Below, piece after piece: positions 24,105 through 64,000 of a DNA stretch of 64,000 nucleotides. The translations under genes and the position numbers were made by a program. Position 1 is the first letter of the stretch. Each line of letters opens with the position of its first letter. The notes beneath the pieces are model-generated. The model ran no database searches and was not told where the DNA came from. It was given only the letters and a program-made list of their open reading frames with translations. This DNA is from Sthenelais limicola (Eukaryota; Annelida; Polychaeta; Phyllodocida; Sigalionidae), in assembly GCA_942159475.1 (NCBI GenBank), contig OW804094.1, positions 19,821,067 through 19,885,066 on the forward strand, in the 5' to 3' direction.

Positions 24105-24644
24105 TGGCCAATTCCACCAATTTGACAACATTTGGCCCCCAACCGTGGAAAGTGATAAAATGGTCTTAATACAAATTAATTACCATTAATTTGATTATTT
24201 TTTTTGATTGGATGGTTCTACCAACCTGTGGAACCACATTTTTGGTATTTCTAGCCCAATTTTTTTTTTTTTTTAATTTCAAAATCCTATTTTGGGGGCA
24301 AAAATCATTTTTTTAAACTGCCATTAGTCCGTGGAATTGCTAAATTTCTAAATAATCTTCAGAATTGAACATTTTTCTTTATATGTTGTCATAGTAGGTT
24401 ACTTGAACATGATCTGTGTAAAAAAAAAATTGCAAAAATTTGTTTTTCCAAAATCCATCAAAGACCGGATTTTTTTTGTGTGCCGTCACGCTGTGTGCTT
24501 AAGGTCGAATAAAAAAAAATAAAAATAAAAAATTCTTCAAATTATGATGAATAATGATAAAATGCATGGGATTATATGTGTTTAGAATCGATCTGATGAG
24601 ATTCTGGAAGGTTTTTTTTCTTTATAGATTCCCTCTAAACCACT

Positions 24645-24870
24645 TCCGTCCCCATAGATCCGTCCCTATAGATCAGTATCAAGCCTATAGTTCAGTCTCA
24701 AGACTCCCTATAGATCAGTATCAAGACTTCCGTCTCCATAGATCAAGACTTCCGTCTCCATAGATCAAGACTTCCGTACTTCCGTCTCCATAGATCAAGA
24801 CTTCCGTCTCCATAGATCAAGACTTCCGTACTTCCGTCTCCATAGATCAAGACTTCCGTATCCATAGATC
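24645..24870. repeat. Minisatellite in element A, unit about 22 bp
   Basis: Units of the form AGACTTCCGTCTCCATAGAT plus CA recur about eight times, with shortened variants (CTATAGATCAGTATCAAG) at the left. Confidence 0.8.
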
Positions 24871-24904
24871 AACCCAACCCTGTCACGTATAGAATGAAAA
24901 AAAA

Positions 24905-24985
24905 AGCTAAAGGACCTGACGAGGCTCGAACCCTCAACGTTCTCCGCAGAAGTCGAGCAGCCTAACCACTACACTACAGAGCTGG
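24905..24985 (-). repeat. tRNA-like segment (SINE head or tRNA pseudogene)
   Basis: On the minus strand, TGTAGTGTAGTGGTTAGGCT resembles a tRNA D-arm (A box), and GAGGGTTCGAGCCTCG a T-arm (B box), 30 bases apart. The ends that should form the acceptor stem do not pair, so I do not call a functional tRNA. Confidence 0.5.
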
Positions 24986-25041
24986 TGGAGATATAGCGGC
25001 TGAATGTTGCTACCCTACCCGGACCGCTTAGAGTTCAAGGC

Positions 25042-25625
25042 GACTTTCGAATGAAATCCTCCGTGCGCTATATAGACTACCGTACACAATGCAACGCCAA
25101 GTGAACGTGCACATGAGTGGGTATGCCGAAGGATCTTCACATCTCTTCCGGTCTACGAAACGTAAGCACGTATAGCTTCTGAACTGGCCATTCATTTATT
25201 ACTCGATTCCCGTCGACTAAATCTTCGCTATCGGGCTCAAACACTATTTAAATCATTCCTACCGATTCAAATCTTTTATTTATTTCTTTTTTAAGTCCCT
25301 GGACACACGGACACGGCATTCGTAGATGCTTCGTTTGTTGACGTGCGGGTCACTTTCGAAAGAAATCCTCCGTGCGCTATATAGGCCACCGTACACAATG
25401 CAACGCCAAGTGAATGTGCACATGAGTCGCTATGCCGAAGGGTCTCCACATCTCTTCCGGTCGCACGTATAGGTTCTGAACTCGCCATTCATTTATTGCT
25501 TGATTCCCGTCGACTAAATCTTGGCTATCGGGCTCAAACACTATTTAAATCATTTCTACCGATTCAAATCTTTTATTTATTTCTTTTTTAAGTCCCTAGA
25601 GACACGCAACACGGCATTCGAGAAC
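25042..25625. repeat. Tandem duplication of about 290 bp in element A
   Basis: Sequence from GACTTTCGAATGAAATCCTC (25042) through AAGTCCCTGGACACACG is repeated from about 25348 (CACTTTCGAAAGAAATCCTC) to about 25605, with scattered substitutions and a small deletion near 25460. Confidence 0.8.
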
Positions 25626-25845
25626 CGGAAGTGTCCGATGCTTGCCGCGTTAGTCGGAAACTGCATGATACCACGACGGCTGGCCAAGTGAAGTGGGCGG
25701 GGCTTAGCGGAGAAACAGCCAATCAGAGGTGCGTATTCGCTAATGTTTACGTTCAGCCAGCCGCCGTGTTTTCGCAAGGTTCCGCTGCTTGCTATCCAAA
25801 GCATCGTTTTCAGTAAAATAGGGAAATCACTTCCGGTCTCATAGA
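25626..25845. promoter_or_regulatory. Promoter-like GC-rich block inside element A
   Basis: Within 220 bp are ACCGGAAGTG (ETS-type), GTGGGCGGGGCTTAG (GC box), AGCCAATCAGAG (CCAAT box) and CACTTCCGGTC (ETS-type, inverted). The composition differs sharply from the AT-rich surroundings. Such a cluster is typical of TATA-less animal promoters. Whether it is active, and in which direction, is unknown. Confidence 0.45.
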
Positions 25846-25972
25846 AAGGCTCACGACTCGCATGGCTTTTGCATGATATTTTGGATGTTTTTGGATGTTT
25901 TTGGACGGAATAAAGAAGGTTTGTCTATCTTTTTTGCTCTAACATTAAGGAAATCTCATCAATTCTCTTCTA

Positions 25973-26102
25973 AAAGCAATAATTTCCTCGGATTTTTCTG
26001 CTCGCGGTGTCTATAGCGTCAGGGAATTCTCGGGCTTCGCCCTCGAACTCCCTGACGCTATAGACACCGCGAGCAGAAAAAACCTCGGAAATTATTCCTT
26101 AA
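25973..26102. repeat. Foldback inside element A, arms about 55 bp
   Basis: TTTTTCTGCTCGCGGTGTCT and the following 30 bases (to about 26030) are repeated inverted at 26040-26100, with a loop of about 15 bp. The outer parts (AATAATTTCC/GGAAATTATT) also pair. As RNA it would be a stable hairpin. Confidence 0.8.
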
Positions 26103-27081
26103 ATAGAACATCAAATGTATTGATTTGAGTTTTTCTTGAATTGTAGCAGAGAAATAACATGAGGGCATAAGGTGGTGGGTACCATAGCCCCTGTCGTGTG
26201 CCGTCACGCCTATTTTAGGGTTTTTAGAGCCTTATAAGGCATAAATTTAATAATAAACCTTAAATTTGACATTTATTATTGGCTTTGCTTATAATGAATC
26301 TATGTGGATTGAAATTCATAATTTCCGAGTAGTTTTTACATGATTCTTACAGCAAAATGCTTAAAAAAATTGCCGTCACGTTGTGTCGTGTGCCATCACG
26401 CCTGCCGTTGTGAGCTGTCACGCCTGCCGTCACATAATATCAGAAATTATATCTCTAACATATATACATAATATTAGAACATTTATCCTTGAAGATTTTG
26501 CCTCTAAATACTTTAACAGAACAGGAACAATCAATACAAGTATTCGAATCAACTTAAAATTAAACAAGGGTAATAAATAATTTATATTCTATATAATATG
26601 TGTGGGCATATATTCTGAATGTTCTGTATGGGCAGAGGGTCAATGACCTGTCACCCTTACCGCTGCCATTATGACTACCATTACTGAATGGTTAGTTGGC
26701 TATAACTTTTCTTCTAGTTAGAATATTTTCACAAAATAAAAAGTGTTATGACCCTTATGTCGAGACCTATTTAGTACAACATAGTTCAATACATTATATG
26801 CATATTTGTTTTATTTATTTCTAATTTAAATCCTCATTTATGTAGAAATATGTACCATTATTCGTCATGCTATTTTTGGCATTTTTTTTCATATTTGGGA
26901 TCTATTTTTCGACCCCCTGTCAAAAAATTACTAATAATCAGAATGGTTCTAAACTTAACAGTTAAATGCGCATATATATAAGGTTGGTAGAAAATAACAA
27001 ATCAACTGATAAATGTAAAAACTATTTTTGGGTATTCAGGGGGTGTCTGGGGGCCCAAATGTTGTCTAATTGGTGGAAATA

Positions 27082-27085
<4 letters not shown>

Positions 27086-27132
<47 letters not shown>
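27086..27132. repeat. (AT)n microsatellite
   Basis: About 23 AT dinucleotides directly abut the right end of element A. Confidence 0.95.
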
Positions 27133-27134
<2 letters not shown>

Positions 27135-27139
27135 ATTCG

Positions 27140-28687: not shown

Positions 28688-30169
28688 ATGGAGTTCTTGC
28701 TGATCAGATTCAGGTGAGAGATAAGAAGACGGCCAAGGTGGAGTGCTAAGATAAAGATAATAGACTAATGTTAGATATATTTAAATGATATTTTGTACTT
28801 GTAAGTAGTTAGTGCATAGATGCCAGGGAATATTTACAAAGATTTAAATAATGCCTAACAGATTCAATACACTGATCACTCTCCTGGTGTTGGGTGTATA
28901 TTGGGACTACTGCCAGTCTGGCAGGAAATAAAGGTTTTTTTACAGGAATTTTGTATGAAAAATCATGTGTCTTCAAAATAAAAAGTGCTGATACAAAAAT
29001 ATATGTAGTAATGTTAAGTGTATACTCTCACTGTAAAGAAATACATTCATAAAAACCCTGTTTTTGTAAAACCCTGTTATACTGACAATGGTGGGAATGG
29101 TCAGCATATTTGCGGGTATCATGGAAGGCCTGGGTTTGATTCCTGGGAAAGACAGTTTACTGACAAGTAATATTTTTAATTGTTATTTGCTTCTGAAATG
29201 CCTAATCTTACTTACATTTGGTATTGATATTAACATGTAATGATATTTAAATAATTCATTGTAATCATTTGGTCCAGGTGGCTAGTCCTAGCTATAGGGC
29301 TGATGGCATTTCATTTGGCATCATCTGAGGAATGCAATTCCAATGATAAGGTAACCTTCAAGCGAATATTGCATTCTACCAACCGATCACCATTAGTTTA
29401 CCCTCCAATCGAAAAACCAGATGTCCTTGAAGGCCTGGGGAACTGTACAAGTCCTGAAGAATTTGCAAGGGGCATGATGGAGTACTTCTCTGGGTATGGA
29501 GTCGATCTATCAATCATTCAGGACCCATATGTTAAGTATGATGGGGTTAATTTTGAACTAGACATGATGGCTGGAAGAAACTACAATGTCTTGTATTCCG
29601 CATTCAACAATGGTTTTGGAAAGTTTGTTAACAGGAGGAATTACTGGGGAGGATGGAGATTGACAGCAAAACAAAGATTCACAGGGCCATCAGGAACACT
29701 TGAGAGAAACCATAGGATGATATACGGAGTTGAAAGGTAGATTGCTGCATAGATCCCTGGCAAGGATCTCACTTATCCTTGATTGCAGGAGTGAAATTCT
29801 TCACTCACATTTTGTTACGATGTCACTCAGTCAAGAGATTGTAGTATACATTTTCAGAATAAAGCTTAATGAGGCCTAATTACAGTAGAGGTATAGGTTA
29901 TGAAAATGAATGTGTAAAATTGCTAATTAGTAACTTATATATTTCATATAATATATTTCAGATTATACTTGGGCGGCAAGGAAGAATGTGTTTACTACTT
30001 TCATCGCAAACCAGTAGATTTAGGTTCTGCACCACCTGATCTGTTCTTATATGTTCTGGGCAGCTTGCATGCAGAGTGGGGAGATGGAGCATTTTCTGGT
30101 CTATACAGAATAACTGATGACACTGTTGAAGGAGGTGGAATCTATACATTCCCAGCAAATAGTGATTAG
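28688..30169 (+). CDS. Gene 1: secreted protein of the tandem family
   Basis: Three exons: 28688-28713 (MEFLLIRF plus two bases), 29278-29736 and 29962-30169 (stop TAG). Donors are GTGAGA and GTAGAT; acceptors are TCCAG and TTTCAG. The joins give an unbroken 230-residue frame. An in-frame ATG six bases upstream (28682) is an alternative start. The signal peptide runs across exons 1-2 (RWLVLAIGLMAFHLASS), then EEC. The mature protein has Cys at EECN, GNCT and EECVYY, a repeated-aromatic block (NYNVLYSAFNNGFGKFVNRR then WGGWRL) and an N-glycosylation sequon at NCT. Exons 2-3 and the upstream DNA align with gene 2. No membrane anchor. Extracellular role inferred; family unrecognised. Confidence 0.85.
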
Positions 30170-34436: not shown

Positions 34437-36420
34437 ACGATGCCCTGAGGAAATCAATATTATTTTGTATGCCCTAAGGGAATCATTACAACCTTGTATG
34501 CCCTGAGGGAATCATTACAACTCTGTATGCCCTCAGTGAATCATTACAACTGTGTAATGCCCTGAGGTAATCATTACAACCCTGTATGCCCTGAGGGAAT
34601 CATTACATCATTGTATGCCCTGAGGGAATCATTACAACTTTGTATTCACTCAGGGAATCATTACAACCTTGTATGCCCTCAGGGAATCATTACAACATTG
34701 TATGCCCTGAGGGAATCATTACAACTTTGTATTCACTCAGAGAATCATTACAACTGTGTATGCCCTCAGGGAATCATTACATCTGTGTATGCCCTCAGGG
34801 AATCATTACAACCTTGTATGCTCTGAGGGAATCACTGCAGCTGCGTCCCTCAGGGAATCATTACAACATTGTATTCCCTCAGAGAATCATTACAACTTTG
34901 TATGCCCTGAGGGAATCATTACAACTTTGTATTCTCTCAGAGAATCATTACAACTGTGTATGTCCCCAGGGAATCATTACAGCTCCATAGGCCCTGAGGG
35001 AATCAGTTCAACTGTGTATGCCCTGAGGGAATCATTACAACTGTGTATGCCCTGAGGGAATCATTACAACCTTGTATGCCCCCAGGGAATCATTGCAGCT
35101 ATGTATGCCCTCAGGGAATCTTTACAACATTGTATTCTCTGAGAGAATCATTACAGCTCTGTATGCCCTGAGGGAATCATTACATCTGTGTATGCCCTGA
35201 GGGAATCATTACAACCTTATATGCCCTCAGGGAATCATTACATCTGTGTATGCCCTCAGGGAATCATTACAACATTGTATGCCCTCAGGGAATCATTACA
35301 TCTGTGTATGCCCTCAGGGAATCATTACATCTGTGTATGCCCTAAGGGAATCATTACAACTGTGTATGCCCTGAGGGAATCATAACAACATTGTATGCCC
35401 TGAGGGAATCAGTTCAACTTTGTATGCCCTGAGGGAATCATTACAAATACAATGTAGGCCCTGAGGGAATCATTACAACTGTGTATGCCCTGAGGGAATC
35501 ATTACAACTGTGTATGCCCTGAGGGAATCATTACAACTGTGTATGCTCTGAGGGAATCATTACAACCGTGTGAGCTCTCAGGGAATCATTAAAACTGTGG
35601 AAGCTCTCAGGGAATCACCATGTCCTTATATCTTTGTATTCCATCAGGGAATCACTATGACTTTGTATGCCTTTGTATTCCTAAGGGAATCATTACCATA
35701 GATAGTGACCAATCAATATGGGATAATTATCTCTATGTAACAACAGCACTATCAGTATTCAAGCTAGGTAAAGCTAATATAATCTATCATCATAACACAA
35801 CTTTGTATTCCCTCAGGGAATTATTACAATTTTGCATTCTCTCAGGGAATCAGTACAACTTTGTTATTCCTCAAGGAATCTTTACAATTTTGTATATGAG
35901 AACTCAGAATTCTTGGTATATGTGATATAGATATATTAACATATTCCTTGAGTGAAAACTTTGTATTCCTTGAGGAAATCATTTCATCTCTGTATTCGTC
36001 TGGGAATCATCTTTGACTTTGTATCCCTCAGGGAATCACCATGACTATGTATGCCCTGAGGGCATCATTGTGATTCTGTATGCCCTGAGGGCATCATTGT
36101 GATTCTGTATGCCCTGAGGAATCATTGTGATTCTGTATGCCCTGAGAGCATCATTGTGATTCTGTATGCCCTGGGGGCATCATTGTGATTCTGTATGCCC
36201 TGAGGGAATTATTGTGACTCTGTATGCCCTGAGAGCATCATCGTGATTCTGTATGCCCTGAGGGAATCATTGTGATTCTGTATGCCCTGAGGGAATCATT
36301 GTGGTTTGTATGCCCTGAGGGAATCATTGTGATTTTGTATGCCCACAGGGAACCATTGTGATTTTGTAAGCCCTCAGGGAACCATTGTGATTTTGTAAGC
36401 CCTCAGGGAATCATAGATGT
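34437..36420 (+). repeat. 29-bp minisatellite, forward arm of a giant inverted array
   Basis: Units of 29 bp contain TATGCCCTGAGGGAATCATT followed by ACAACTGTG or ACAACTTTG. The core CCCTGAGGG/CCCTCAGGG is nearly palindromic. About 60 units are present, regular at the left and increasingly divergent to the right (ATTGTGATTCTG replaces ATTACAACT from 36060). An interruption of unrelated sequence lies at 35700-35790. Stop-free reading across three units creates false ORFs. Confidence 0.95.
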
Positions 36421-36870
36421 TTTTTATATCACAATTGGGGTTGTACACCATGGAATAGAGTGAAATCTGACCGTTGTATCTCGTTGCATAGAATTTGCAT
36501 GGACATTTTTAAGATGCTTCAATGCCCAATGGACTGTAATAGCTAGGGGAGCATCAGGCAAAGTTTGATTGGCTGATATGGTAAATTTTGTAACATTTTA
36601 AACATGGGGCAATAATACTTTCATGATTTATACTTATTCATTGTACATATCTCATCTGTAAAGACCTCCTTTGCACAATGTCAAATGTGACTGTTGATGT
36701 TACCCTGGTACATGATGTCATGCCCATTTGTGATGTCATATGCTTCAGGATCGAAGTCAATAGGGCAAACATCGTCGCTAGCTAGGTAAATAGAGAAATT
36801 GTTTTCGACTTTTTCCTAAATAAGAGATGGTAATATAAGGGTTTGTCTCATTTAACTCATTTGTACAGAT
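36421..36870. other. Spacer between the two minisatellite arms
   Basis: About 450 bp of unrelated AT-rich sequence with no repeat units and no ORF of note. Confidence 0.7.
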
Positions 36871-39206: not shown

Positions 39207-40576
39207 TGAGTAATTCCACTAATTGGTCGACAGATGACTATAAAATAGATTTTTGCATTTTTAATGAGAAATCTTGGTCTGGAGTTATTTTACTCAATTC
39301 TGTCAGATGCCCAGACAGGAAATACATCAGAAATACCCCCCTTTTACATATCTGGCATTAATATTTTAAATTCTAGAGGAAAGAAACCACTGTTTTATTG
39401 CCTAAGCATTAAAGAAAATCTTACTACTTCTGAGAAAAAGTGTGCAAAGAAAAAAAAATGATGTCAAATCAGTGTTACATGTTTATTCAAATTTCATATC
39501 ATGACCCTGGCTATCGAATAATTTGAAAAAAATATATTTCTAATAATCCATTGGTTGATTTGCAATGCAAAAATCTCTGGAAGTCTGTATATGACACCAT
39601 AACATGCCTCTTTAAAACTAGGATAAAAATTGATATAAACACCAAGATGGGTCAAGTGAATATGTTTTAGATAGTTTTCAATGTATTCTCCCATATAATA
39701 ATGAATGTATTGAATATTTTAGTTTTCTCTGGAATAAGAGCATATGATATATATATTTGGGAAGTTTCTATGTCACCATAACGTGCCGGACATTTTAGCT
39801 AAATAAAATATCTAGAGTTGAAAAAATTAAAGTATGGCTGAAGGTAAGTCATCCTATAGCTCAGACATAAACAGTTGCATTATCCCTCTGCTGTGCATTA
39901 TTGCACTTCAAGAGTGCTAAAACATGATGTCACCATAACGTGTCAGTACGTTACGGTGACATATATTATGTGACATACATTATATGACATATATTATGTA
40001 ACATACATGTATTGGCTGGACCTTTTCCCTAATAATTTTGCCTCTAAATACTGAAACAGAATGTAGATTTACTTTCATGAACTGATATAAGTATTCAAGT
40101 CAACTAAGCAAGAAAACAAGGGGGAAAGAATGTGATACATTTTTGTATAAATTCTAAATATAATGGATTATATATGTGTATGCATATGGGTATAGGGTCA
40201 ATGACCTGTAAGTATTGCTGCTGCCATTATCATTACCATTACTGAATCGTTATTTGGCTGTAACTTTTCTTCTAGTGGGAATATTTTCACAAACTAAAAA
40301 GTGTTATGACCCTTATGTCGATACCTGAGACGTACACAGTGATTCAAAACATTATGGGCATATTATTTCTATTTATTTCTAGTTTAAATCCTCATTTATG
40401 TTGAAATATGTACCATTCATTGGTGCCCTAACTACAATATTCATCATTAACAGTCCAACTTTCGTCTATATTATCAGCAATATGTCTATTAATATGTACG
40501 AAAAATAATAAATCAATACAAGCTATTTAAAAAAATTAAGAATTTTCAGCCAAATGACGAATGGTGGATTTGCTCA
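39207..40576. mobile_element. Element B: TA-flanked non-coding element
   Basis: The left end TGAGTAATTCCACTAATTGG and the right end GACGAATGGTGGATTTGCTCA are imperfect inverted repeats. TA stands outside both (39205-39206, 40577-40578), as for TA target duplication. No coding region. The motif TGTCACCATAACGTG occurs at 39591-39606 (variant), 39771-39786 and 39927-39942, with an inverted relative directly after. The stretch 40036-40430 aligns with element A at 26490-26880 (TTTTGCCTCTAAATAC, GTCAATGACCTG, CATTACTGAATCGTTATTTG). Confidence 0.75.
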
Positions 40577-46325: not shown

Positions 46326-46515
46326 TCTGTCCCTACCCCATCTCCAATTTCCCCCCGATCCCCGATCCCCTCTTCCTCATGCTCCCCCTATCCGCTTTCT
46401 CTCCCTCCCCTCTCTCCCTTCCCCTATATCCTCTTCCTCCTCCCTTCCCCCCTCTTCTTTCCCTCCCCCTCTCCTATTCCTACACCCTCTTCTTCACTCT
46501 CCCATTCCTCTGCAT
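46326..46515. repeat. Pyrimidine-rich (CT) tract
   Basis: About 190 bp almost entirely of C and T, repeated at 55199-55387. It yields Pro/Ser/Leu-rich false ORFs. It begins at the edge of the family F MITE. Confidence 0.85.
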
Positions 46516-46529
46516 GTAGTTAGGTCTCC

Positions 46530-48400: not shown

Positions 48401-48464
48401 CATCTTTTATTGCATTGCATTGCATAAAACTCTCAGGTGGTAGGGGAATCCAGACACATGAACT

Positions 48465-51400
48465 ATGGAGTACCTGCCAGCAAGATTAAGGTGAGAGAGG
48501 ACGCCTTTATAAAATGGCAAATACAAATCTTCTCTAGACGAGTTGTGGCCCCGTGCGAAAACCATTTTCATAAAAAATAAACACAAGCTTAGTATTGTGA
48601 CCCATAGCTCTGGTCCAGAGAACCATTGTATTCCAGAACCCCATTTAACTCACTTTTTTCGCTCAAATTGATCTTAGCCCATCTAAGACTTTCACTGATC
48701 GAAAGGGAATGATATCAAAAGCTAAATCTGGGAGTTTAAAAGTAAACCAAGCCCCAGATGTGGAGATATTAGAGAAATTTTAAAAAAAATTACCCCAAAA
48801 CAGGACAAATGTAAAAAGGCAGCCTGCGCTGGGAGTCAAATTCACTATGTACTAGCAATTTACAAGAAAAGCTAGGATAGTTTAAACAGCAGCAAAGCAC
48901 TTTGGTGGGTCAAAAAAATATGAATAAACCTTTAAGAAGCCCGCAATGAAAAACAATATTTATACAACTGTTCTCCACAATGTGAGTTGAATGACTTTCA
49001 GATGGGTGGAAAAGATTTAGATTTATATGAGTCGATTCCTTCACATTATGAGTGCCTCAGTCTGTAGAGTAAGGCTGCGATTCCACTGGCTCACTCGTTT
49101 GGTCCACTCATGGCCTGCTCTTTTTATTTAAAGTTAAAGTGAAACCAGAGTGGTTTAATAGAATCGGTTATTGCGCTTTCTATACGCTCTTTAAAAACTG
49201 CTATTTTCGCTTCTTTAGAAGAGCGCAGGACGTTGCGGTAATATCTGACGTGTTTGATTTGAGCACAACTACATGGCGCTCTTTCCACGTCTTTTAGGAG
49301 CGATCCAAGAGCGCAATGAGAGTGAACCAAGTAATTTACCATCGATTTCATAAGGAAATATATATATATAAGAATTTTTATTCATATAAATCAATACAGT
49401 TACATCAATGAAAAGGGCTTGGTCCTCTAGACGCGTACGCGAGTAGCTCTTCCAGCTAGTCCTTCTAAACATAGGATTTCTAGATCGACTTAGAGTCCCG
49501 TGGGACAAAATTAGTGTATACAATTATTGACAATTCCCAGATTTGTGCCATGTATTAAACTACAGTTGATAATAGTGGGTTAACATACTGTAATCAGTAC
49601 ACCAGTACAGGTTACTGCTGTTAGGATATTATAATACTGGATTGCTTTTGTAGCTCTGGTTTTTACTAGTTAACAGATATGAACTTGAGCTCATTAACCT
49701 ATGTATACTGGTTAATGTATTACTGGACAATCACATAATTAAAATGTTTCTACAGCGGAAACATCGGTATTAATGACAATCATTATGAGAGATTCCAAGG
49801 TTAAATAATTAGTTAGACAATTTACATACAAATGACAATCAATCATTTATGCGATCTAATAGTTGGATAAGACTTTTTAAGAAAAGTCACCCCTTCTACT
49901 TTTGTAGAATTATATACATATTATAACAATGAATTAACAGTGATAGGACAATGGAAATGGACGGTATCGATATCTCAATCTTAGAACATAGAAGGATGCC
50001 CAAGGACCAGTACTAAGATAAAGAGAATAGAAATTTGAACTAATATTAGGATATATTTGAAGTTATATTTTTTACTTGTAATTAGTTAGTGCATATAGAT
50101 GGTAGGGAATATTTACAAAGATTTAGATCTTAGTCTTACACATTCAATACACTAATCACTCTCCGGGTGTCCGGTGTAAAAGCAAAAAAAGTCTTTTTTC
50201 AGGAACTTTGTATGTTTCTTAAAATAAAAAGTGCTGATACAAAAATATATGTAGTAACCTCAAGTCAGGAATCTGTAAGTAAAAATACATTTATAAAAAC
50301 CCTGTTTTTGGAAAATCCTGTTAAACTGACAATGGTGGGAATGGTCAGCATGTTTGCAGGCATTGTGAAAGGCCTGGGTTCAAGGATTCCGGATACAAGT
50401 AATATTTGTAGTAGAGGGAAGGGGGCTCGCTGTATATCGGGGAGGCTGGCTTAAATAGTTGATGTAATTGATGAAAGAGCATAATAAACTTGATTGTTGT
50501 TTTATTTGGTTATCTCGAGCTTTCGGGCGACTTGCCCTTCTTCAGGAGTTGGTGATCAGTAATATTTGTAATATTTGTATTTGTTATATGATTCTGAAAT
50601 GCCTGATCTTACCTATTTAACATGCAAAGATATTTACATACATGATAGAATTGGTAATATCTAACATTTCATTGTAATCATTTACATATTTAAATAGATG
50701 ATAGAATTAGTAGTTTCTAATATTTCATTGTAATTATTTGGTCCAGGTGCTTAGTCCTAGCTATAGGGCTGATGTCATTTCATTTGGCATCATCTGAAGA
50801 ATGCAATTCAAATGATAAGGTGACCTTCAAGCGGATATTGCACACTGCCTATCGAGGACCATTAATTGAGCCTGAAATCACAAGACCAGATGTCATTGAA
50901 GGCCTGGGGAACTGTACAAGTCCTGAACAATTTGCAAGGAGCATGTTGGCGTTCTTCGCTGGGTATGGAGTCGATCTATCCATTATCCAGGACCCATATG
51001 TTAAACATGATGGGGTTAATTACATATTAGACATGAATGCTGCCAGAAACTACAATGTCTTGTATTCCTCATTCAACAATGGTTTTGGAAAGTTGGTTAA
51101 CAGGAGGAATTATTGGGGAGGATGGAGATTGACAGTAAAACAAAGATTCACAGGGCCATCAGGAACACTTGAGAGAAGCCAAAGGATCGTATACGGAGTT
51201 GAAAGGTAGATATATACTTAATAGATACATGATAAAATTGGTACTATCTAACATTTCATTGTAATCACTGCTGTTGTTATGCACAACCCTAATGAAAGCC
51301 CGAGTTGGGCCGAAACACGTTTGGTAAAGAATAAACAAAGTACTTCAAAGAAATGTGATGGAGTGATATTTACTGGGGTTCCCATACCTTATATCATCTA

Positions 51401-53261: not shown

Positions 53262-54490
53262 TGAGTAATTCTCCCAATCGAGCATCATTTGGTTTTCCAG
53301 CCTAGGGTGTCTACAACCTGTATTTGGGATGATCACACATGATTATAACCATTTTAATTCAATTACTTGGCCGAAATGAGGCTGTGGGAAGTAGGGTTTA
53401 ATAGTTCTCATGCCAGAATCTTCGCCGCTATTGCAATATAAGTGCTTTTTCAGGCTAGAAAATAAGTAATAATTATGGTATTTGAATATAATACACAGGC
53501 GCATTTAGAAAATATATTACTTTTGCTGACAAAAAATGGTTCAAACACATGCACACATGTTGGTTATTATGAAAAACACAGTATTTAAGGAATCTCTGGT
53601 CTAAACTGATCTAGACATGGAAAATATCATTTTGGAATATTTGTGTCGCGTTATGACATGTATTAGCTTCAAAATAATGAAATACCCAAAGAGTGACAAT
53701 AAATATTATATTGCATTTAGTATTGGAGGGGAGGGAAGATGTACACATAGGTATCTTTCGATAAAAATAAAAGCTATTAGCCTATAATGTGTATGAACCC
53801 TCTTATTTCCTGAAATGAAATTCAATGAATTGATATGGGAATGTTGTATGTCGCCTTACGACATGTAAAATAAATCCCATATTTAAAATAAAATATGTTT
53901 TTCATATAATTTCCTCTTTTCTAATAATTGCTTAGGCCTGCCTGAATTTGGTAAAAGATATAGATATGAATGTATACAGATGTTGTTGAATTGCAGTGAG
54001 CATATAATGGAATGTCGCCGTTACGACTATAGCGTCGCCGTTACGTCATAATTAATAGAAATAAAGAGATCCTGCTATATTAGCACCATTATTTTATAGA
54101 AATAAAAAAGATATTTTGACAAAAAGTTATTCAAACTTTGGTTAGAACCATATCCTTTGTTGGGAGCCATCATCGATTTCCTAGCTGTTACTTTGTCATT
54201 TAATATTGCTGGCATAATTAATGGATATCTCATCTAAAATTTACACAATATTATTTGATAAATCTGGCTTGATATAGGCAAAATAAGGCACAAAATAGGC
54301 AAAAATGGGGTTTCTGAATCATAGATGTAGGAATCGAAATATTTGGCACAGCCTTCCCAAACTTTGTATGTGTAATCTTAATATTCTCTTCTATATGTAT
54401 GCCCAAAATTGTAGAGATTCGACGAATTTTATTTTTTCTAAAAAAATGGCCCCCTGAAATCAAATGCTCCCCGTTTGGGAGAATTACTCA
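53262..54490. mobile_element. Element D: 1.2-kb TA-flanked element, recent insertion
   Basis: The ends TGAGTAATTCTCCCA and TGGGAGAATTACTCA are perfect inverted repeats. TA flanks both (53260-53261, 54491-54492), with one TA in the unoccupied copy (45618-45619). No long ORF. The motif GTCGC(C/G)(G)TTA(C/T)GACA is found at 53643-53660, 53848-53865, 54012-54027 and 54034-54050. The ends resemble those of element B. Confidence 0.9.
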
Positions 54491-54802
54491 TATAAGGAAA
54501 AATGTTATTTGTGGCATGGTAACCAAGACAATGTGTCCTTCCTTGACAACGGTCTAGTTTCAATCTTACACATTATTAATATCCCTCACGATTTTAGAGG
54601 TATAGACAATCCCTAAAGAAGGCATTATAATATCACTTTGGATTCAGAATAATGTACAACATCTAAAGAAATAAAACATCTTTCTCAAACCCATCTGGGC
54701 AGGCAAAAGGGTTTTTGGCGTTACCACTTGAAAATATTTATATAAATGTAATTCACGTGAGTTCACTTCACTCCATTCCTGCACTTCACCTCTTGTAAAA
54801 TA

Positions 54803-55198
54803 TACATATGTGATGTGTTTTAGGAAAATGTGTCACAAGTCGCAAAATTATTATTTTTGAAAGTATTTTTTTCTCAAGATCTCTTTATTTAAATGCTCTG
54901 ATATTTAGAGGGTTTAGCACTTATGGTCATATGAATCAACATAACAAATTTCGGGACATTGTATTAAATGCATCCATGGGTTTTGAAGGCCTTCGTATTG
55001 AGTATATTTAGTTACTTTACTGGTAATTACCCATCCAAAAACGTTTTCTTTTTTTTCAAAAATACATAATTATTTATTATAAGGTGTCCTAGTGTTTAGT
55101 ATCATTGAAATCACCTTGATCTCCTCTTCTCAAATATGGTGATATCGCACAATCCATATTATTTTTTGCGACTTATGACTCATTTATGACTTGTTTTT
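54803..55198. mobile_element. Family F MITE (right duplication copy)
   Basis: Copy of 45931-46325, with GCGACTTATGACTCAT kept better at the right end (GCG rather than GTG). Confidence 0.75.
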
Positions 55199-57327
55199 CT
55201 CTCCCTACCCCATCTCCAATTTCCCCCCGATCCCCGATCCCCTCTTCCTCATGCTCCCCCTATCCGCTTTCTCTCCCTCCCCTCTCTCCCTTCCCCTATA
55301 TCCTCTTCCTCCTCCCTTCCCCCCTCTTCTTTCCCTCCCCCTCTCCTATTCCTACACCCTCTTCTTCACTCTCCCATTCCTCTGCATGTAGTTAGGTCTC
55401 CCTGGACGTAGGTTGTGGGAAATGATGTAGGGGTTTTCCCAGGCTATAAATAGAGTGTAGAGATCACAATTTAAAAAAGGCTTCAAAATCCTATTTTCAT
55501 CCCAGATACCTGCATAAACCACATATAGTGTCCTCCAGAGAGGGTGGACAGAACTCTACAGATTGTAAAACAACAAAAATCCGAGAACATGTGAGACAAA
55601 GAAACCCCTCTTTTCTACCTAAGAAACCCTTCTTTTCTACCTCTTTTCGTAGAAATCGCTCTTTCCGTATATTATATGGATTGTTGCTAAATACTTGTAT
55701 GTCAGGTTTGAACTGAATCTATCCCAGCAGGCACTGTTATAGACATGCGCAGTGAGAAATGCAAATCCCCTATAGCAGTTGCAACATGCCTCATGATAAG
55801 AAAGCGTCGCCATCTATCGCAGAAATATTCGCAGAAATATTTGACATGTTTAATATTTGTTGGTGGTATGGTTCTTTTGTATAATGAATGTATGATGAAG
55901 AATAAATAACATATAAAGTGCATGATTTTTCAAAAATGAAGTATATTCTATGCTGTTTTGTTGTATCAGTACTTTTGTTCCTTTTTCTACTTTTTTGAAC
56001 TACAATTACTAGAACTCATTACCTTCTGGGTAATGATTAAAGTAAGAAGATTTCTGCCTCATGCAGACTGAAGATTATGGAAGTTGCTTCCTAACTTTGT
56101 TCATTATAAACCTACTAGTCCAGATGAGAGCATGAAAAGGGCTGAACCTAGGACAAATTGCAACCAAAGGTTTCTCAACGGTTTTGGGTAGTATGAGTGC
56201 CCCTTATTAACATATTAACAGTCCCGGAAAATCTAGGTGGAACATGGCCAAATCAAAAAAAAAAGTAGCTGCCCTTAAAACTTTGGAACCCCATAACGAA
56301 AAACCCCATAACTTAAAATTAACACATAATCAAGTGTGAATACATTCTTTTTATGTTTTGAGGCATGGAGTATCCATTGAAATATGAATAAAATCAATAT
56401 AATCAATATTTAGCAATTTATTCTACTGACACAGAGAAAAAATGACAAAAAAACCTCCATGCAACTTGGTAGCCATGGATGGCAATCAGAGCGGAGTCAG
56501 AGGTGAGTGAAACCAATAGACTTTTAGTGACAGATGGTTGTCCGCTGTGTGCCCCCCCTCCTATCCCATCAAGTTTGTGTGAATCAAATTTTCAGGCAGT
56601 TCTTCTATCTGACAATCAATTCAGATGGAAGCAAAAATGGTTTAGTGAAAACCAGATTTGTGTGTATTAAATGCTATGATAGGAAGTAACGAGGTTGGTA
56701 TGAGATGCCCACAAGTATTTTCTACCAGGGATCGATATCCTTGGTAAAAACGAGTGGGCGTCATTTACAGTAAGTCAGATACCGACCTAGTTGCATTCTA
56801 TTTTTATACCACGATCCCATATTTTAAAATAAAGTGCATAAACAAACTGCTTATTTACCTCACTTTGCTCTAAGATCCCGCCATGTTGATTTGTGGTACC
56901 GAAGCGATAGACAAGACAATAACTGAGTGGCTAATGAATGAGGGCACGGACTGCATAATGATCTCACGAACCAACGTGATATCATGAGCAAGCATAACAT
57001 CAACAAATAGGGAGCCTTCTTAAAAATAGGCTTAAAAAACATCAGATTTTTCGCGCGTGAATCCACTTGACCAGATGCAATGGCAGGTATCACTGATTTG
57101 CAGCTTGTATAACCTTGAGATCATGGTATGAAGTGCTTCAAATTACCAGTGCAGACTAATAATGCAAGCAGTATAATGATAGTGGACTATCATACAACAG
57201 CACTCAATATAATACACACTTCGAAAGAGTCACTTATTGGATTTGGAGAGTTACTGATCATCTTTTATTGCATTGCATTGCATTGCATAAAACTCTCAGG
57301 TGGTAGTGGAATCCAGACACATGAACT

Positions 57328-59486
57328 ATGGAGTACCTGCCAGCAAGATTGAGGTGAGAGAGGACGCCTTTATAAAATGGCAAATACAAATCTTTTCTAG
57401 ACGAGTTGTGGCCCCGTGCAAAAACCAGTTTCATAAAAAATAAACACAAGCTTAGTATTGTGGCCCATAGCTCTGGTCCAGAGAACCATTGTATTCCAGA
57501 ACCCCATTTAACTCACTTTTTTCGCTCAAATTGATCTTAGCCCATCTAAGACTTTCACCGATCGAAGGGGAATGATATCAAAAGCTAAATCTGGGAGTTT
57601 AAAGGTAAACCAAGCCCCAGATGTGGAGATATTAGAGAAATTTTTAAAAAAATTACCCCAAAACAGGACAAATATAAAAAGGCAGCCTGTGCTGGGAGTC
57701 AAATTCACAATGTACTAGCAATTTACAAGAAAAGCTAGGATAGTTTGAACAGCAGCAAAGCACTTTGGCGGGTCAAAAAAATATGAATAAACCTTTAAGA
57801 AGCCCGCAATGAAAAACAATATTGCAGTTCTCCACAATGTGAGTTGAATGACTTTCAGATGGGTGGAAAAGAATTAGATTTATATGAGTCGATTCCTTCA
57901 CATTATGAGTGCCTCAGTCTGTAGAGTAAGGCTGCGATTCCACTGGCTCACTCTTTTGGTCCACTCATGGCCTGCTCTTTTTATTTAAAGCTAAAGCGAA
58001 ACCAGAGTGGTTTAATAGAATTGGTTATTGCACTTTCTATACGCTCTATTTACGCTTCTTTAGAAGAGCGCAGGACGTTGCGGTAATATCTAACGTGTTT
58101 GATTTGAGCACAACTACATGGCGCTCTTTCCACGTCTTTTAGGAGTGATCCAAGAGCGCAATGAGAGTGGACCAAGTAATTTACCATCGATTTCATAAGG
58201 AAATAAGCAAACCAGTAGAATCGCTCTGTGCTTGTATTGCGCTAAAAATAAAAGCGACAAAGCGCAAATGAAAATGACAATATAAAGAAGTGAGGCAAGA
58301 GCAAGCCAGCCAGATGCAAGCAAGAGCAAGGAAGCCAGTGCAGATACAAGTGATCCAGTGGAAACACACCTTAACTCCTTAATTTGCATTATAGCAACTT
58401 CACTTTTTTTACTGCAAATTGAGGCCCCCTTTTGGCTTTCGTTGGTTATTTTTAGATACCGAACGTTGAAGGGCTGTAATCCAAAAATGAGCACAGTGAC
58501 CCATTGATTTTTTCCCCATTTTTATGACCAGAAACACTCCAAGAATCAAATCACAAAGTTTCAGAAAAATGACATTTATTTTCATTTTCCACTAGATAGT
58601 TGCATTTGCCTTAATGGAATCTGAAGCTGGACTTTACTAGTCAAAACTGTTCTTTAATTGTATCTGCTGTTAACATTAGATAAACCTATATTCCTCTCTA
58701 AGAGTGATCTTTCAATGCATGTTCAATACAATTTTCCTGTAATCCTCTTTTATATTAGGGTTCTAGGGTTGACAGCTGGTTTAATCTTTGACACGTAATA
58801 CAAATATATTTGCAGTTATAAACATTGAGATAAAATACAAGAAATACAATATTATATTCTGAGAAGTATAATATAATAAATCCTACTTTTTGATTACCAT
58901 GGAACAAAATTATTTGTATTTTTGGAGTGTTTAACTTGTACGTTAAACATTGTATCATTGATTTTTCTTTTCAGCAAGGTCAACTAAGTACATTTACAGT
59001 ATAGAATTAACATAAATCATTTCCATGGCAATGTTATTTCAGGTTCATTCTCCTTACTACATTACTGAAGGTATCTTTTAATTTGGCATCCACTGAACAA
59101 TGCGTCAACCCAGTAGCCTACAAGCAAATGTTCCATTCCTCCTACTATGGACCTACAACTCAACCTGAAGACACAAAGGAAGACATGCTTGAAGGATTGG
59201 GCAACTGTACAAATCCTGAACAATTTGGAAAGAATGCATTGGAACTTTTCTTGAGCTTTGGTATTGATGTTTCACTCATTCAGAACCCATATGTGCGGTA
59301 TGATGGAGTGCACTTCTCTCTAACTCACAGCACTGCTAAAAGCTACAATGTCCTGTATGCTTCATTCCAAAATGGCTTTGGAAAATTCGTCAACAAGAGG
59401 AATGGTTGGGCTGGATGGAGATTGCAAACAAAACAAAGAACGGGAAGACTTGAGAGAGGCCACAGGATAGTCTATGGTGTTGAAAG
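57328..59486 (+). CDS. Gene 4: secreted family member, last exon not found in the window
   Basis: Exon 1 at 57328-57353 (MEYLPARL plus two bases, donor GTGAGA) and exon 2 at 59043-59486 (acceptor TTTCAG, donor GTAAGT, a perfect match). Exon 2 completes a signal peptide (FILLTTLLKVSFNLAST) and reads EQC, GNCTNPEQF, YGV-like FGIDVSLIQNPYVRYDGV, SYNVLYASFQNGFGKFVNKR and WAGWRL. It is 15 bases shorter than in genes 1-3 and clearly diverged. The C-terminal exon (Cys-V-Y-Y block) is not visible downstream, where elements E and C fill the intron. It probably lies beyond the right edge, or is lost. Confidence 0.75.
58384..59040. other. Gene 4 intron 1, unassigned sequence
   Basis: AT-rich, with no repeat or exon that I can define. 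Confidence 0.4.
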
Positions 59487-59619
59487 GTAAGTAGTCCTAG
59501 AGCCCCCTATATCCTGAAATGCGAAATTTCATATTACCTTGTCTCTCCCCTTCTTTAACTATCCTCCCTCGTATTCTCTATACTATTTCTTACTATACAC
59601 ATGTATATATATATATATA

Positions 59620-62283
59620 TGGTCAAATCCGGAAATTTTGTAACATTTTTTTTTCAAAAATATTTTCTTTGATCATTTTCATCTTTTGTCCATATAATGT
59701 CGATAATATATAGATTAATCCCTGAAAATATCATTTCTTATTTTTCTATATTAAGAGGAGGGTTGATGGTTGAAACACAAAGTGAATTTCATACTTTTAT
59801 ACTACGAATCCATTGATTTATGCTGCTTTTATGCTTTTCTTTACCCTCTATGAATTGATCCTGGTTATTTATTGATTAGTCCCAGTAAAAGGAATGTTTT
59901 GGTGGCCTGAAAAACAGGTGAGAAAGTTAATGAACTTCATTCTTTCATATTTTTTCATCTCATGACATTTTTAATCAGGAGCTCCTGGAACCAGTCGAAA
60001 TTGACATTAGGTTGTGGCAAACCCAATAAATAATAGGACAAAGGAGTTAGATAATAAAGATTTCATGCTAGTCCAACCTGAGAGTTGTATCTATGGTATC
60101 ATAAACTTTTCATGGTGCTGAGATCATCAATAAATTCACTATGAGAGACCAAAGAAATGGATTCGTAGTATAAATTTAAAGCAATGAATCTCTAATTTTG
60201 AAATATATGAAATGTTGTATCGTACCTGATTCCAATATCAATCTAGTATAATTCCTGAAACTGTGTGTAGAGGAAGCTGTCAGCATCTGTAAAACATTTC
60301 TAAAAAAAAATTGATGTTAAACAATATTATTTCCTATGTAATTACATGGATTTGTAGTATAAATATTCTCATAGTGGATTTGTAGTATAAAATTAATTAT
60401 TGAAATTGAATGGCTTGATTTTCATCCTGTATGTAAGTTCTAAAATTATTTTAATCTTCATCCTTGGTGACCAGGGATATTGTAGCATGGTTTCAGGTAT
60501 TTTTTATCCATCTATGCGAAAGCAATTTATTTTTCTGGAATGAATCTCTAATTTTGAAATATATATATGAAATGTTGTATCGTTCCTGATTCCAATATCA
60601 ATCTAGTATAATTCCTGAAACTGTGTGTAGAGGAAGCTGTCAGCATCAGTAAAACATTTCTAAAAAAAAATTGATGTTAAACAATATTATTTCCTATGTA
60701 ATTACGTGGATTCGTAGTATAAATATTCTCATGATGGATTCGTAGTATAAAATTAATTATTGAAATTGAATGGCTTGATTTTCATCCTGTATGTAAGTTC
60801 TAAAATTATTTTAATCTTCATCCTTGGTGACCAGGGATATTGTAGCATGGTTTCAGGTATTTTTTATCCATCTATGCGAAAGCAATTTATTTTTCTGGAA
60901 TGAATCTCTAATTTTGAAATATATGAAATGTTGTATCGTTCCTGATTCCAATGTCAATCAAGTATAACTCCTGAAACTGTGTGTAGAGGAAGCTGTCAGC
61001 ATCTGTAAAACATTTCTAAAAAAAAATTGATGTTAAACAATATTATTTCCTATGTAATTAAGTGGATTCGTAGTATAAATATTCTCATAGTGGATTCGTA
61101 GTATAAAAGTAATTATTGAAATTGAATGGCTTGATTTTCATCTAATGTGTACGTTCTAAAATTATTTTAATCTTCATCCTTAGTGACCAGGGATATTGTA
61201 GCATGGTTTCAGGTATTTTTTATCATATTGTCCTAGAAGCATTTCTCTTCCCACAGCAAGCATTTAAATCCGACAGACATAATGGTAGTTATAATAATAA
61301 TAGAAATAAAAAAGCATAATTATATGATACGTCCACTGGCATCCAATCGACTAAATTACCTCTAGCAACATTCATTTCCTTCAAAATGATGGTAAATATG
61401 CCAAGAATTTGAGTGAAAAACGCTTAAACTATAAATTACATTTATACTACGAATCCATTTATACTACAAATCCACCTATGTTAACCATCAATACCAAAAG
61501 AACCAGTTACAAATAAGCGGTGAACAGCTCCTATTATTGCTCAGGCCGTATGGCCAATGGATTCATTGTGAAAATTTGACTTAAATATGGCTAAAACGTA
61601 AATTATGGCTGAATTGATCGTCCTGATCTTTAATATTTCTGACTTTATAAGACAATCTATCAAGAAAAACAGTAGAAATAAGACTTACATTGGTTTCAAT
61701 GGCACAAAGCTTGAATGGTCATTGACACTGGATAAGTCAGCTAAGCAGTAAAATGGTAGGTGGTGGCACTGTTCATCAAACTAACACTAGATGACATTGT
61801 GGATTTGTAGTATAAATATTTGGCATTTGGCTTTTTTCAGACTGGCTCCCACCACACCAAATGCATAAACACTAAATCTTTATAACTTTGCCCATAGAAT
61901 CACAAGAATCTAATAATGATAATTTGAAAAGCTGGATTCTTATTCTTTTTTATTTCTTTAGATATCTCATTTAGAAGTGGATTCGTAGTATAAAAGCTTT
62001 TTTGGTCCATTTTTAGACATTTTTTGTCTTTCCCTGCTCAGTCCTAAGATATTATAGCCAGGTTACAAATCTTATGCCACACTTATTCTGACATGTGATG
62101 GGTATCTCAGAGATATATTAATTAAATTATAATTAAAATAATTTTACTGATTCTTGTGCCATGAAAATGGATTCGTAGTATAAAACTTATTTATATCATG
62201 AATCAGGGGCTATAATTGATAACTAAAGACATGGACTACAGTGATAAAATTTTCCAACATCATATAATACATATTTTCGTACA
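59620..62283. mobile_element. Element E: member of the A-D family, right end not identified
   Basis: The left end TGGTCAAATCCGGAAATTTT GTAACATTT matches the element A end at most positions and is preceded by TA. Inside, GGATTCGTAGTATAAA or its inverse occurs about 13 times (for example 59797-59812 inverted, 60159-60174, 60347, 60375, 60706, 60736, 61061, 61090, two inverted near 61445-61478, 61801, 61979, 62169). No ORF of note. Its right terminus is not recognisable before element C starts, so C may be inserted in it or E may be truncated. Confidence 0.55.
60185..61225. repeat. Three tandem units of about 358 bp in element E
   Basis: TGAATCTCTAATTTTGAAAT starts units at 60185, 60541 and 60901; the third is incomplete. 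Each unit carries two copies of the GGATTCGTAGTATAAA motif about 28 bases apart. Confidence 0.9.
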
Positions 62284-64000
62284 TGGCCAATTCCACCAAT
62301 TTGACAACATTTGGCCCCCAACCGTGGAAAGGGATAAAATGGGCTTAAATCAAATTAAAGGTATATGCGGGTGTTCAATGGAAAAAAAATTGGTCGGTGA
62401 CTTTTTTATGAAACGTTCAGGGATCATTCCTGACTACATAAGAAAGCAAGAAATGAAAAAAAAAGTACATGTCAACGACTTATTTTTTTTTCTACAGCCC
62501 CATGAAAATAACAGTGCTTTAGCATTGAAGTCTATGGGAAAATGTTGTTTTTTTCACATTTCAATATATAAAAAAATAATGATCGGTGACTTTACATCAA
62601 AACTTTCTATACATATATTTGGTATATTATGCTACAGATTTACCAAAGAAAAACAGTATGTTGACGAGGTTAAAAAAAAGTTGTGGTCATTTGAAGATGA
62701 CCACATCACCCAAATTTAGTAATCAAACAGCATAATCAATAAAAATGAATCCTGAAAAACATGACTCCAAACTGCTTTAATAAAAATAAACCCTGTTGAT
62801 ATTGAAAATGGAGCACAAATACATCTCAACTTATGATGATAATAAACTACTTCAAAGAAAAATAGGAGCCGCTAGGTGGCGTGTGTGATGACACCCGCAT
62901 ATATCTTTAATTACCATTAATTTGATTATTTTTTTTGATTGGATGGTTCTACCAACCTGTGGAACCACATTTTTTTCATTTTTAGCCAATTTTTTTCATT
63001 TTTTTTATTTCAAAATCCCATTTTGGGGGCAAAAATCGTTTTTTTGAACTGTCATTACATGGTGGAATTGCTAAATTTCTAAATAATCATCAAAAGCCAA
63101 CATTTTTCATTATATGTTGTGATAGTAGGTTACTTGTACATGATTTGTGTCAAAAAATTTAGCAAAAAAATGATTTTCAGGGTGAAAGCCATAAAAAACA
63201 GATTTTTTTTGGAATGGGTACCCCTGGTGTCCACTAACGAACATTTATTTGCCTAAGGTGGAATAATTTTTTTCAAAATAATGAAAATTATCCAATTATA
63301 ACAAATAATGATAAAATGCATTGGATTTGATATGTAATGAACATTAAATGTATTGGTTAAAGTTTTTCTTGAAACATAGCAGAGAAAATGCATAGTGCCA
63401 AGAACCTATAGGAACTGGAGATAGTGTCCACTAACGAACACCCTATTTAAGGCTTTTTATGGTTTTATAAGGCAGTATTTTAAGAATGAACTTTAAATTT
63501 GACATTTATTATTGATTTAGTATAATATCAGTTTATATAGATCAATAGTTAATATTTCTGCCTAATTTTCATATGATTTATACAGCAATATGGCCCATTG
63601 TCCACTAACGAACATATGTGTCCACTAACGAACATATGTGTCCACTAACGAACATATGAGTCTATTAACATCACTTTGTGAGTCAGAAATGAACTAGATT
63701 CTGTGGCCATTATTACTAATCGATTTCATTATGAATAATAAACAGATTTCATTCAAAATTATGATTTCAGACCTTATTAATATGTTAAAAAATGACTCTC
63801 TAATTGTAAGAAAGTGTATCAATGAAGCCTCCATTCAAGCCAGGAATAATGGATATAATATAGGCGGGGTCATTAAACTTGTCGCTGCCATTATGATTAC
63901 CATTACTGAATGGTTATTTGGCTCTAACTTTTCTTCTAGTAAGAATATTTTCACAAACTAAAAAGTGTTATTACCCTTATGTCGAGACCTATAAAGTACA
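62284..64000. mobile_element. Element C: relative of element A, runs off the right edge
   Basis: It begins TGGCCAATTCCACCAATTTG and follows element A closely for the first 75 bases, then again from 62911 to about 63210 after a nested insertion, and near 63340-63580 and 63876-64000. At the places where A has GCCGTCACG words, C has TGTCCACTAACGAACA: 63228-63243, 63425-63440 and three copies at 63598-63655. The right end is outside the window. Confidence 0.75.
62359..62906. mobile_element. 548-bp TTAA-flanked MITE nested in element C
   Basis: Ends AGGTATATGCGGGTGT and ACACCCGCATATATCT are inverted repeats with one mismatch, flanked by TTAA at 62355-62358 and 62907-62910. Element A shows the unoccupied site (CAAATTAATTACC at about 24173-24185). 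The end sequence does not start with CCC, so it may not be classical piggyBac. Confidence 0.88.

Follow-up and report, generated by a model that had tools for sequence, protein, structure and literature searches.

The window analysed here, a stretch of 64,000 nucleotides from the annelid Sthenelais limicola, holds five transposable elements (A to E), each of which carries its own version of a short motif. The locus thus raises the question of what these motifs are for and how they came to differ between elements of related structure.

Architecture of the elements and placement of their motifs

A–E all belong to the DNA transposons. Their inverted ends are related, as the original prediction had proposed, and read TGG/TGA, and their target duplications are 2 bp long. 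Their features are as follows.

24105..27085, plus strand: element A, ends TGGCCAATTCCACCAATTTG.. and ..TAATTGGTGGAAATAGCCA; about 1,455 bp without its insert
24478..24492, plus: A motif site 1, GTGTGCCGTCACGCT; exact GCCGTCACG at 24482
24580..26105: insert in A relative to C, about 1.5 kb, with tandem and 297-bp repeats inside
26196..26210, plus: A motif site 2, GTGTGCCGTCACGCC; exact GCCGTCACG at 26200
26368..26436, plus: A motif site 3, cluster of four copies (26372 exact; 26392, 26414 and 26426 with 1 mismatch)
26627..26859, plus: A, conserved right block, 85% identity to B
39207..40576, plus: element B, TA on either flank
39590..39606, plus: B motif site 1, TGTCACCATAACGTG with 2 mismatches at 39592
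39769..39785, plus: B motif site 2, exact TGTCACCATAACGTG at 39771
39926..39963, plus: B motif site 3, cluster (pair); 39928 exact, the second at 39947 on the minus strand with 2 mismatches
40185..40417, plus: B, conserved right block
53262..54490, plus: element D, 1,229 bp, TA flanks; empty site in a paralogous copy at 45610-45626
53644..53658, plus: D motif site 1, TGTCGCGTTATGACA, variant read by eye
53849..53863, plus: D motif site 2, TGTCGCCTTACGACA, variant read by eye
54013..54047, plus: D motif site 3, cluster of two copies, 54014 and 54034
59620..65286 (past the window end at 64000), strand not given: element E, end TGGTCAAATCCGGAAATTTTGTAACATTTT, split by C
59796..62184, both strands (10 sites and 3 sites): E motif array of 13 sites with at most 1 mismatch, 9 of them exact
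62284..64306 (right end beyond the window), plus: element C, CA on either flank, nested in E
62360..62909: insert in C, 550 bp, TTAA flanks, inverted ends
63227..63243, plus: C motif site 1, exact TGTCCACTAACGAACA at 63228
63424..63440, plus: C motif site 2, exact TGTCCACTAACGAACA at 63425
63598..63654, plus: C motif site 3, cluster of three copies with a period of 20 bp; exact TGTCCACTAACGAACA at 63599, 63619 and 63639
63883..64000, plus: C, conserved right block, in-window part

A position check of A–E found the motifs within a few bases of where they had been predicted, each element with its own version; the variants at D sites 1 and 2 were new to our analysis. Once inserts are set aside, the distances of the three sites to the left end match in A, B, C and D (382-402, 573-599 and 730-773), and both the proposed equivalence of the A and C positions and that of the B cluster hold on this measure. 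The similarity of D to A and B outside the motifs is no greater than that of shuffles, so the D sites are matched by their spacing, the ends and short stretches of shared flank. Within the conserved right block, 118 bp of A (26661-26778) are 93% identical to C. Three of the four copies in the A cluster carry a CpG-type change. E contains a 360-bp tandem. Among 11-mers with at least three dispersed exact copies, of which 20 shuffles gave 0-2 each, only the C and E motifs of the five were recovered; the A, B and D motifs have too few exact copies to be assessed in this way and are supported by position and by the genomic copies. A scan of the window with Rfam (gathering scores) and for tRNAs found nothing.

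The motifs are exchanged in step within an element while their surroundings are retained, as had been claimed. For four elements and three sites, motif identity was 0.853 within an element and 0.572 at the same site between elements, whereas flank identity showed the reverse (0.393 within, 0.474 between). In a permutation test of this grouping, 27 of 20,000 permutations reached the observed value and none exceeded it, the floor of the test being set by the observed grouping as about 1 in 576 possible ones. When A is compared with C in 13-bp windows, the lowest identity in the left part (0.23; mean 0.79) falls on sites 1 and 2. The sites stand out less in other class pairs: for K-I, I-H and H-C they rank no lower than the 7th to 14th percentile, and A/T tracts diverge just as much. 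Neither of two contrary outcomes, motifs varying no more than their flanks or sites at non-homologous positions, was what we found.

Motif versions among genomic copies

A pattern from the block common to A, B and C gave 1,675 genomic matches, 70 of which were read as copies. Repeat finding that presupposed no core ranked the motif first in most of them; in 12 of the 70, by the analyst's reading, another repeat or none came out on top. On the basis of repeat finding in these copies, the analyst named the classes and their motifs, which are laid out as two single sites and one cluster at about -720, -525 and -350 to -310 relative to the block. All 58 classed copies are uniform in motif version: a search for eight class motifs, with up to 2 mismatches allowed and A/J and B/B2 each taken as one version, gave no copy of mixed superclass, which bears out the prediction on genomic copies. 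The 12 copies without a class comprise L062 and L063 (K motif), L046 (E inside a B copy) and nine others in which much of the left part is missing or replaced. Equal 2-bp flanks were seen in 46 of 50 two-ended copies and a 3-bp match in none; the 46 pairs are TA in 36 cases and other dinucleotides in 10.

The original prediction had described the tags as exchangeable, which is too strong, since classes mostly coincide with flank clades. On trees of the motif-free parts, built from 57 of the 70 copies (the 12 unclassed and L013 left out) and with several long branches, class changes number 9 for the left part and 8 for the right, compared with a minimum of 7 and shuffled means of 36.5 and 36.9; the B2 rows are unclustered in the left-part tree. 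Because classes mostly follow flank clades, tags are replaced along lineages and not shuffled between copies. In lineage L, site 1 and the cluster differ at 2 of 13 bases in 5/5 copies, and in the consensus the change at site 1 is also present at site 2.

Class pairs involving H or C have a motif identity of 0.27-0.60 at a flank identity of 0.71-0.92, with sites 1 and 2 alike. Copies of one class have retained the motif somewhat better than the rest of the element: in classes with at least 4 copies, CpG decay affects 27 of 438 cells in the motif and 61 of 482 elsewhere, and non-CpG positions differ in 4.5% and 6.6%, respectively, in a count that leaves out classes J and B2, treats cells that are non-independent and includes some neighbouring bases in the motif columns. 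Motif sites occur on both strands in B, G and E, and the versions have a common core ending in ACG (comparison of 57 of the 70 copies, excluding L013 and the 12 unclassed). One analysis of the read copies left out L013, L018 and L059 as well as classes B, B2 and G.

A long coding relative and its proteins

The search for autonomous copies that the original prediction called for was successful in part: it yielded one long E-type element, L115 (8.9 kb, with a protein-coding middle), which was the one long copy read, and no coding copy for the A, B, C, D, G, H, I and K lineages. Other long pairs of E ends, among the first 100 or so places listed, lie on C3 (14.7 kb), C6 (5.4 kb) and C2 (5.2 kb). 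L115, which is linked to A–D by its ends and the motif core, contains 17 E motifs where 0.12 are expected; the interval from 1,537 to 6,916, in which its ORFs lie, has none, and the arrays are found on both sides of it.

The 578-aa ORF of L115 would encode a DDE-like candidate transposase. D359, D442 and E475 are invariant across 15 aligned sequences, the ORF and 14 of its 120 listed relatives, with which it shares 29-39% identity, the D/D/E-like pattern and a GHGKGPCDG pattern. The listed relatives are uncharacterised proteins, most of 350-930 aa, and include sequences from the marine invertebrates Amphiura, Lytechinus, Mytilus, Pinctada, Ruditapes and Argopecten; for none of the 120 is a Pfam domain or function given, and the 578-aa protein itself has no credible Pfam match. 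A DBF-type zinc finger in the 718-aa ORF passes the Pfam cut-off.

Several other candidates were set aside. The coding debris in E within the window (MPACSGC ORF, L084) was rejected as a partner protein: it is part of a repeated gene, with 150 scored matches among 613 candidates, and does not occur in the E copy L046. By eye, ORFs of about 400 aa of this gene type resemble retroelement gag. Long ORFs near L012, L031, L035, L036, L057, L061 and L018 had no supportable link to element ends. One tandem gene in the window had no homologs at E 0.001 (17 candidates). Pattern scans of viral contigs gave no match; of two scans of a prokaryote genome collection, one gave none and the other three matches in bacterial assemblies, which we took as chance.

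Possible function of the motifs and comparison with known systems

We consider it fairly likely, judging from the sequences, that the motif serves as a recognition site in cis for a fast-changing DNA-binding protein encoded by the elements, with A–D as non-autonomous copies within one high-copy DNA transposon family and E more distantly related and represented by a long coding form. The protein, either the transposase itself or a zinc-finger part, would have to locate its own motif at several spaced points of an element before acting on it. As its specificity drifts, the lineage served would have its motif sites replaced by selection, with spacing and flanks unchanged. We infer that the motif is bound by a protein, that the elements themselves encode this protein and that the two co-evolve; the protein's action may be transposition, relief of silencing, or both. 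Of the three meanings originally proposed, binding sites fit best, on account of one version per copy, sites on both strands, the common ACG core, the better keeping within classes and the flanking arrays in L115. Calling the motif a self/non-self label restates this idea.

The third proposed meaning, targets or decoys of host small RNAs whose change escapes silencing, is highly improbable. Escape would produce turnover at every site of a lineage, and RNA-directed methylation acts on VANDAL noncoding regions in Arabidopsis (PMC10398659). However, flanks 71-99% identical between group-1 classes would remain targets, the positions are fixed, sites on both strands are unlike what small RNAs predict, and within a class the motif is the better kept part. 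The motifs could instead be sites of host factors, such as promoter or insulator proteins, to which subfamilies were differently recruited. Host transcription factors are also compatible with fixed positions, both strands and CpG-containing cores, but the related core ending in ACG that the versions keep suits one changing protein family better than unrelated host factors, and the arrays on both sides of the L115 coding part likewise speak against this reading, which we regard as unlikely. It is quite improbable that short repeats were merely homogenised by conversion or slippage inside a founder and then copied. Slippage is at work in the 20-bp tandem of C site 3 and the 360-bp tandem of E, each class may stem from one founder, and lineage L, with sites 1 and 2 alike and the cluster different, demonstrates that sites can part; yet sites spaced about 160-200 bp apart with unlike flanks would require very short conversion tracts, in the same way in several lineages, and neutrality does not predict better keeping within classes.

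The recognition-site reading has counterparts in plants. VANDAL elements, which are Mutator-like, have target duplications of about 9 bp, in contrast to the 2 bp seen here in 46 of 50 two-ended copies. In Arabidopsis, according to PMC5735166, related VANDAL elements have different short noncoding motifs, each studied VANC protein acts on elements with its own motif, and the authors proposed protein-motif co-evolution. The likeness lies in related elements with version-specific short motifs in noncoding regions; the VANDAL motif, however, accumulates as tandem repeats, whereas two of the three places here are single fixed sites. A scan of the three L115 ORFs against Pfam, in a profile set without VANC, showed no VANC-type gene. 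CACTA/En-Spm elements, including soybean Tgm1 and Tgmt*, combine conserved ends with subfamily-specific subterminal motifs that occur in both orientations and have a common part, and parallel divergence of TNPA-like binding proteins was suggested (PMC2613891). Our elements resemble them in all these features of ends and motifs. They differ in having TGG/TGA and not CACTA ends, duplications of 2 and not 3 bp, and, in A–D, few fixed sites in place of long subterminal arrays. CMC elements have CACTA-like ends and duplications of 2-4 bp (PMC4482050), so duplication length alone would fit, but the ends do not. In Galileo, PMC3688188 reports several internal sites for one THAP transposase domain, that of the G subfamily binding K ends weakly and N ends not at all. 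Multiple internal sites per element are a shared trait, but Galileo belongs to the P-element superfamily and has very long inverted repeats, and the L115 ORFs have no THAP match.

Other superfamilies agree less well. Tc1/mariner elements duplicate TA (PMC4344528), unlike 10 of our 46 equal pairs, and no Tc1/mariner or pogo catalytic domain was matched by Pfam in the three L115 ORFs. ISL2EU (PHIS) elements have AT duplications, GG ends, a THAP transposase and a YqaJ protein (PMC4482050), as against TA-preferring duplications and TGG/TGA ends here; neither THAP nor YqaJ was matched by Pfam in the L115 ORFs. What we did find are the general traits of cut-and-paste DNA transposons, namely inverted ends, target duplication and the D empty site. 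Our literature search found no report of the pattern outside plants, which is not proof of absence.

We tentatively suggest, at somewhat less than even chances, that the elements form an unnamed animal superfamily with 2-bp TA-preferring duplications and a DDE-like protein outside Pfam families, and that they carry a self-recognition code in which a lineage's own CpG-containing motif at fixed sites is read by a fast-changing domain of that lineage's protein. Such a code would be an animal counterpart of VANC and TNPA, and lineage L would have been caught in mid-change. Over a thousand block matches in a family with spaced sites replaced in step are a natural record of possible protein-target co-change. 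Should every class turn out to have a coding copy, the recognition code could, together with its intermediates, be tested directly, probably outside plants, against host silencing.

Ends, nesting and target duplications of the elements

Elements A–D span 1.2–1.5 kb, inserts excluded, and their inverted ends are related (TGGCCAATTCCACCAATTTG or TGAGYAATTCYMCC). The larger element E is flanked by TA, while the element C nested within it is flanked by CA:

59620–65286: element E, flanked by TA, holding the nested element C
right end at 64306, past the window edge: element C, cut by the window

A second E copy (locus L046; 2,760 bp, flanks AG) lies within a B copy. Equal 2-bp flanks were found in 46 of 50 two-ended copies, of which 36 have TA and 10 other dinucleotides; shuffling the flank pairing gave 27.8 equal pairs on average and 34 at most.

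D is an insertion, because its empty site is present in the paralogous stretch 45610–45626. This stretch belongs to a segmental duplication (45610–49360 versus 54483–58205, 97% identity) of which one copy alone contains D; thus D inserted after the duplication, or the other copy lost it. Reverse-transcriptase genes are also present in the window, as are four tandem paralogous genes or exons with a signal-like start judged by eye (29250–29742, 42889–43381, 50719–51211 and 59011–59490); one of them had no homologs at E 0.001, and the two that were scanned had no Pfam match. A 29-bp repeat (TGAGGGCATACACAGTTGTAATGATTCCC) forms long arrays in both orientations at 34440–39165 and also adjoins the E-holding B copy in L046. 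The stretch 7740–8524 is rich in AACGTTAAT-like motifs and terminates in a sequence resembling a decayed A end (8524, minus strand), whose score falls within the range reached by shuffles; this region is perhaps an older relative carrying yet another motif.

Motif classes across the genome

We searched the genome (1.13 Gb, 161 contigs) with a 33-bp pattern from the block conserved among A, B and C, allowing up to 3 mismatches, and obtained 869 forward and 806 reverse matches; the reversed control gave zero. Seventy of these copies were read (30 + 40 loci), with L013–L015 being A, B and C of the window. In a repeat search that assumed no core, the motif was the top repeat in most of the 70 copies, and in 12, judged by eye, another repeat or none was on top.

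Motif classes among the 70 copies read; 12 copies are outside class assignment
Class; motif; copies
A; GTGTGCCGTCACGCC; 15
B; ATGTCACCATAACGT; 13
G; ATGTCAGCGTCACGT; 9
I; TCTTGCCGTCACGCA; 7
C; TGTCCACTAACGAAC; 4
H; TGAAGATTAACGACA; 4
J; close variant of A; 3
B2; close variant of B; 3

With A/J and B/B2 each merged into a superclass, none of the 58 classed copies mixed superclasses among the two single sites (1 and 2) and the cluster (site 3), against an expected agreement of 5.7% for three draws made independently. A gap pattern around site 1 matched 595 times genome-wide (controls 0 and 1), and the matches listed include another frequent class, K (GTCGTCTTCGTCACGC), as well as a lineage L. 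Among 20 additional copies, called with up to 2 mismatches of 13, 14 carry a single version throughout sites 1–3 (K 7, H 4, C 2, I 1), and one I copy has the I motif at sites 1 and 2 only. The other five, all of lineage L, show 2 differences in 13 bases when site 1 is compared with the cluster.

In five B copies (L019, L020, L027, L042 and L054), the right end lies approximately +893 to +904 from the block, versus +291; the shift reflects roughly 610 bp inserted on the right side and marks a B sub-lineage. The right block (26627–26859 and 40185–40417) is 85–93% kept between elements whose left parts hardly align. Because copies of both end types have it in common, we suggest that it is under constraint or that parts are exchanged among subfamilies.

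Divergence between classes and preservation within them

Among the group-1 classes, consensus comparison of H or C with the others gave motif identities of 0.27–0.60 versus 0.71–0.92 for the 73-bp flanks; A, J and I are mutually closer in motif (0.73–0.93) as well as flank (0.78–0.99). When A is compared with C, no 13-bp window of the left part scores below sites 1 and 2, whose identity is 0.23 versus a mean of 0.787. Motif sites rank in the lowest 1.5% of left-part windows for five classes together and at 2.7% for the K–C pair, but only at 7–14% for K–I, I–H and H–C, where A/T tracts are equally divergent. Trees built from the left and right parts with the motifs removed require 9 and 8 class changes (minimum possible 7), and none of 200 shuffles gave so few; in the left tree B2 is scattered and long branches were flagged.

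The motif versions have a common core of the form YNACG, which contains a CpG, and of the 12 changes listed for the motifs that A, B, C and E carry in the window, 7 are CpG transitions, four of these being one E change. Within classes of at least 4 copies, CpG decay affects 27 of 438 cells in motif columns versus 61 of 482 outside them (Fisher P 0.001, although the cells are not mutually independent; 8 and 29 changes of other kinds excluded), and 4.5% versus 6.6% of non-CpG positions differ. The motif is most divergent between lineages and best kept within them, the pattern expected if the site depends on a partner that itself changes.

A coding E-type copy and its putative protein

The E end matched 139 times (70 + 69; controls 0), and most pairs among the matches listed lie about 2.7 kb apart, while one on contig C2 spans 8.9 kb. 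This copy, L115, holds 17 E motifs (14 exact; expectation 0.12), in 210–1,536 and 6,917–8,741, and between these arrays ORFs of 143, 578 and 718 aa, all on one strand. The 578-aa ORF had no Pfam match above cut-off and 200 protein matches (E up to 0.001) among 7,995 scored, with named relatives in brittle star, sea urchin, mussels, pearl oyster, clam and scallop; that these are marine invertebrates suggests an animal host genome. Aligned with 14 relatives, D359, D442, E475 and GHGKGPCDG are invariant, making the three acidic residues a candidate D/D/E catalytic triad. Internal repeats occur in the 718-aa ORF, which also encodes a zinc finger of the DBF type (E 5.6e-7, 29.9 bits, Pfam cut-off 24.8); because its C-terminal YIGSVMDVDEATREYDVSFM resembles, by eye, the C-terminal portion of the consensus of these relatives, both ORFs may be pieces of a single protein that lie in different frames or exons. 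Elsewhere, an ORF of 563 aa (L105 3–1691, minus strand) that matches the Pfam family Herpes_teg_N at E 3.4e-12, some kilobases away from copy L035, probably belongs to another mobile element.

The L115 arrays, with motifs on either strand, flank the coding part on both sides and are retained in the short E form, as expected for putative sites of an element-encoded protein. By analogy, the family would work like the plant CACTA and VANDAL elements, as described in PMC2613891 and PMC5735166. We nevertheless do not class it with these, with strict Tc1/mariner or with ISL2EU, because its ends and target duplications depart from the features of these groups (for CACTA/CMC and ISL2EU, PMC4482050). 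The coding copy known here is of the E lineage, and its protein would bear on A–D by virtue of the motif core and of the related ends, at which A and E agree in 22 of 31 bases by visual count. As a putative recognition site of a fast-changing element-encoded protein, the motif would co-evolve with that protein.
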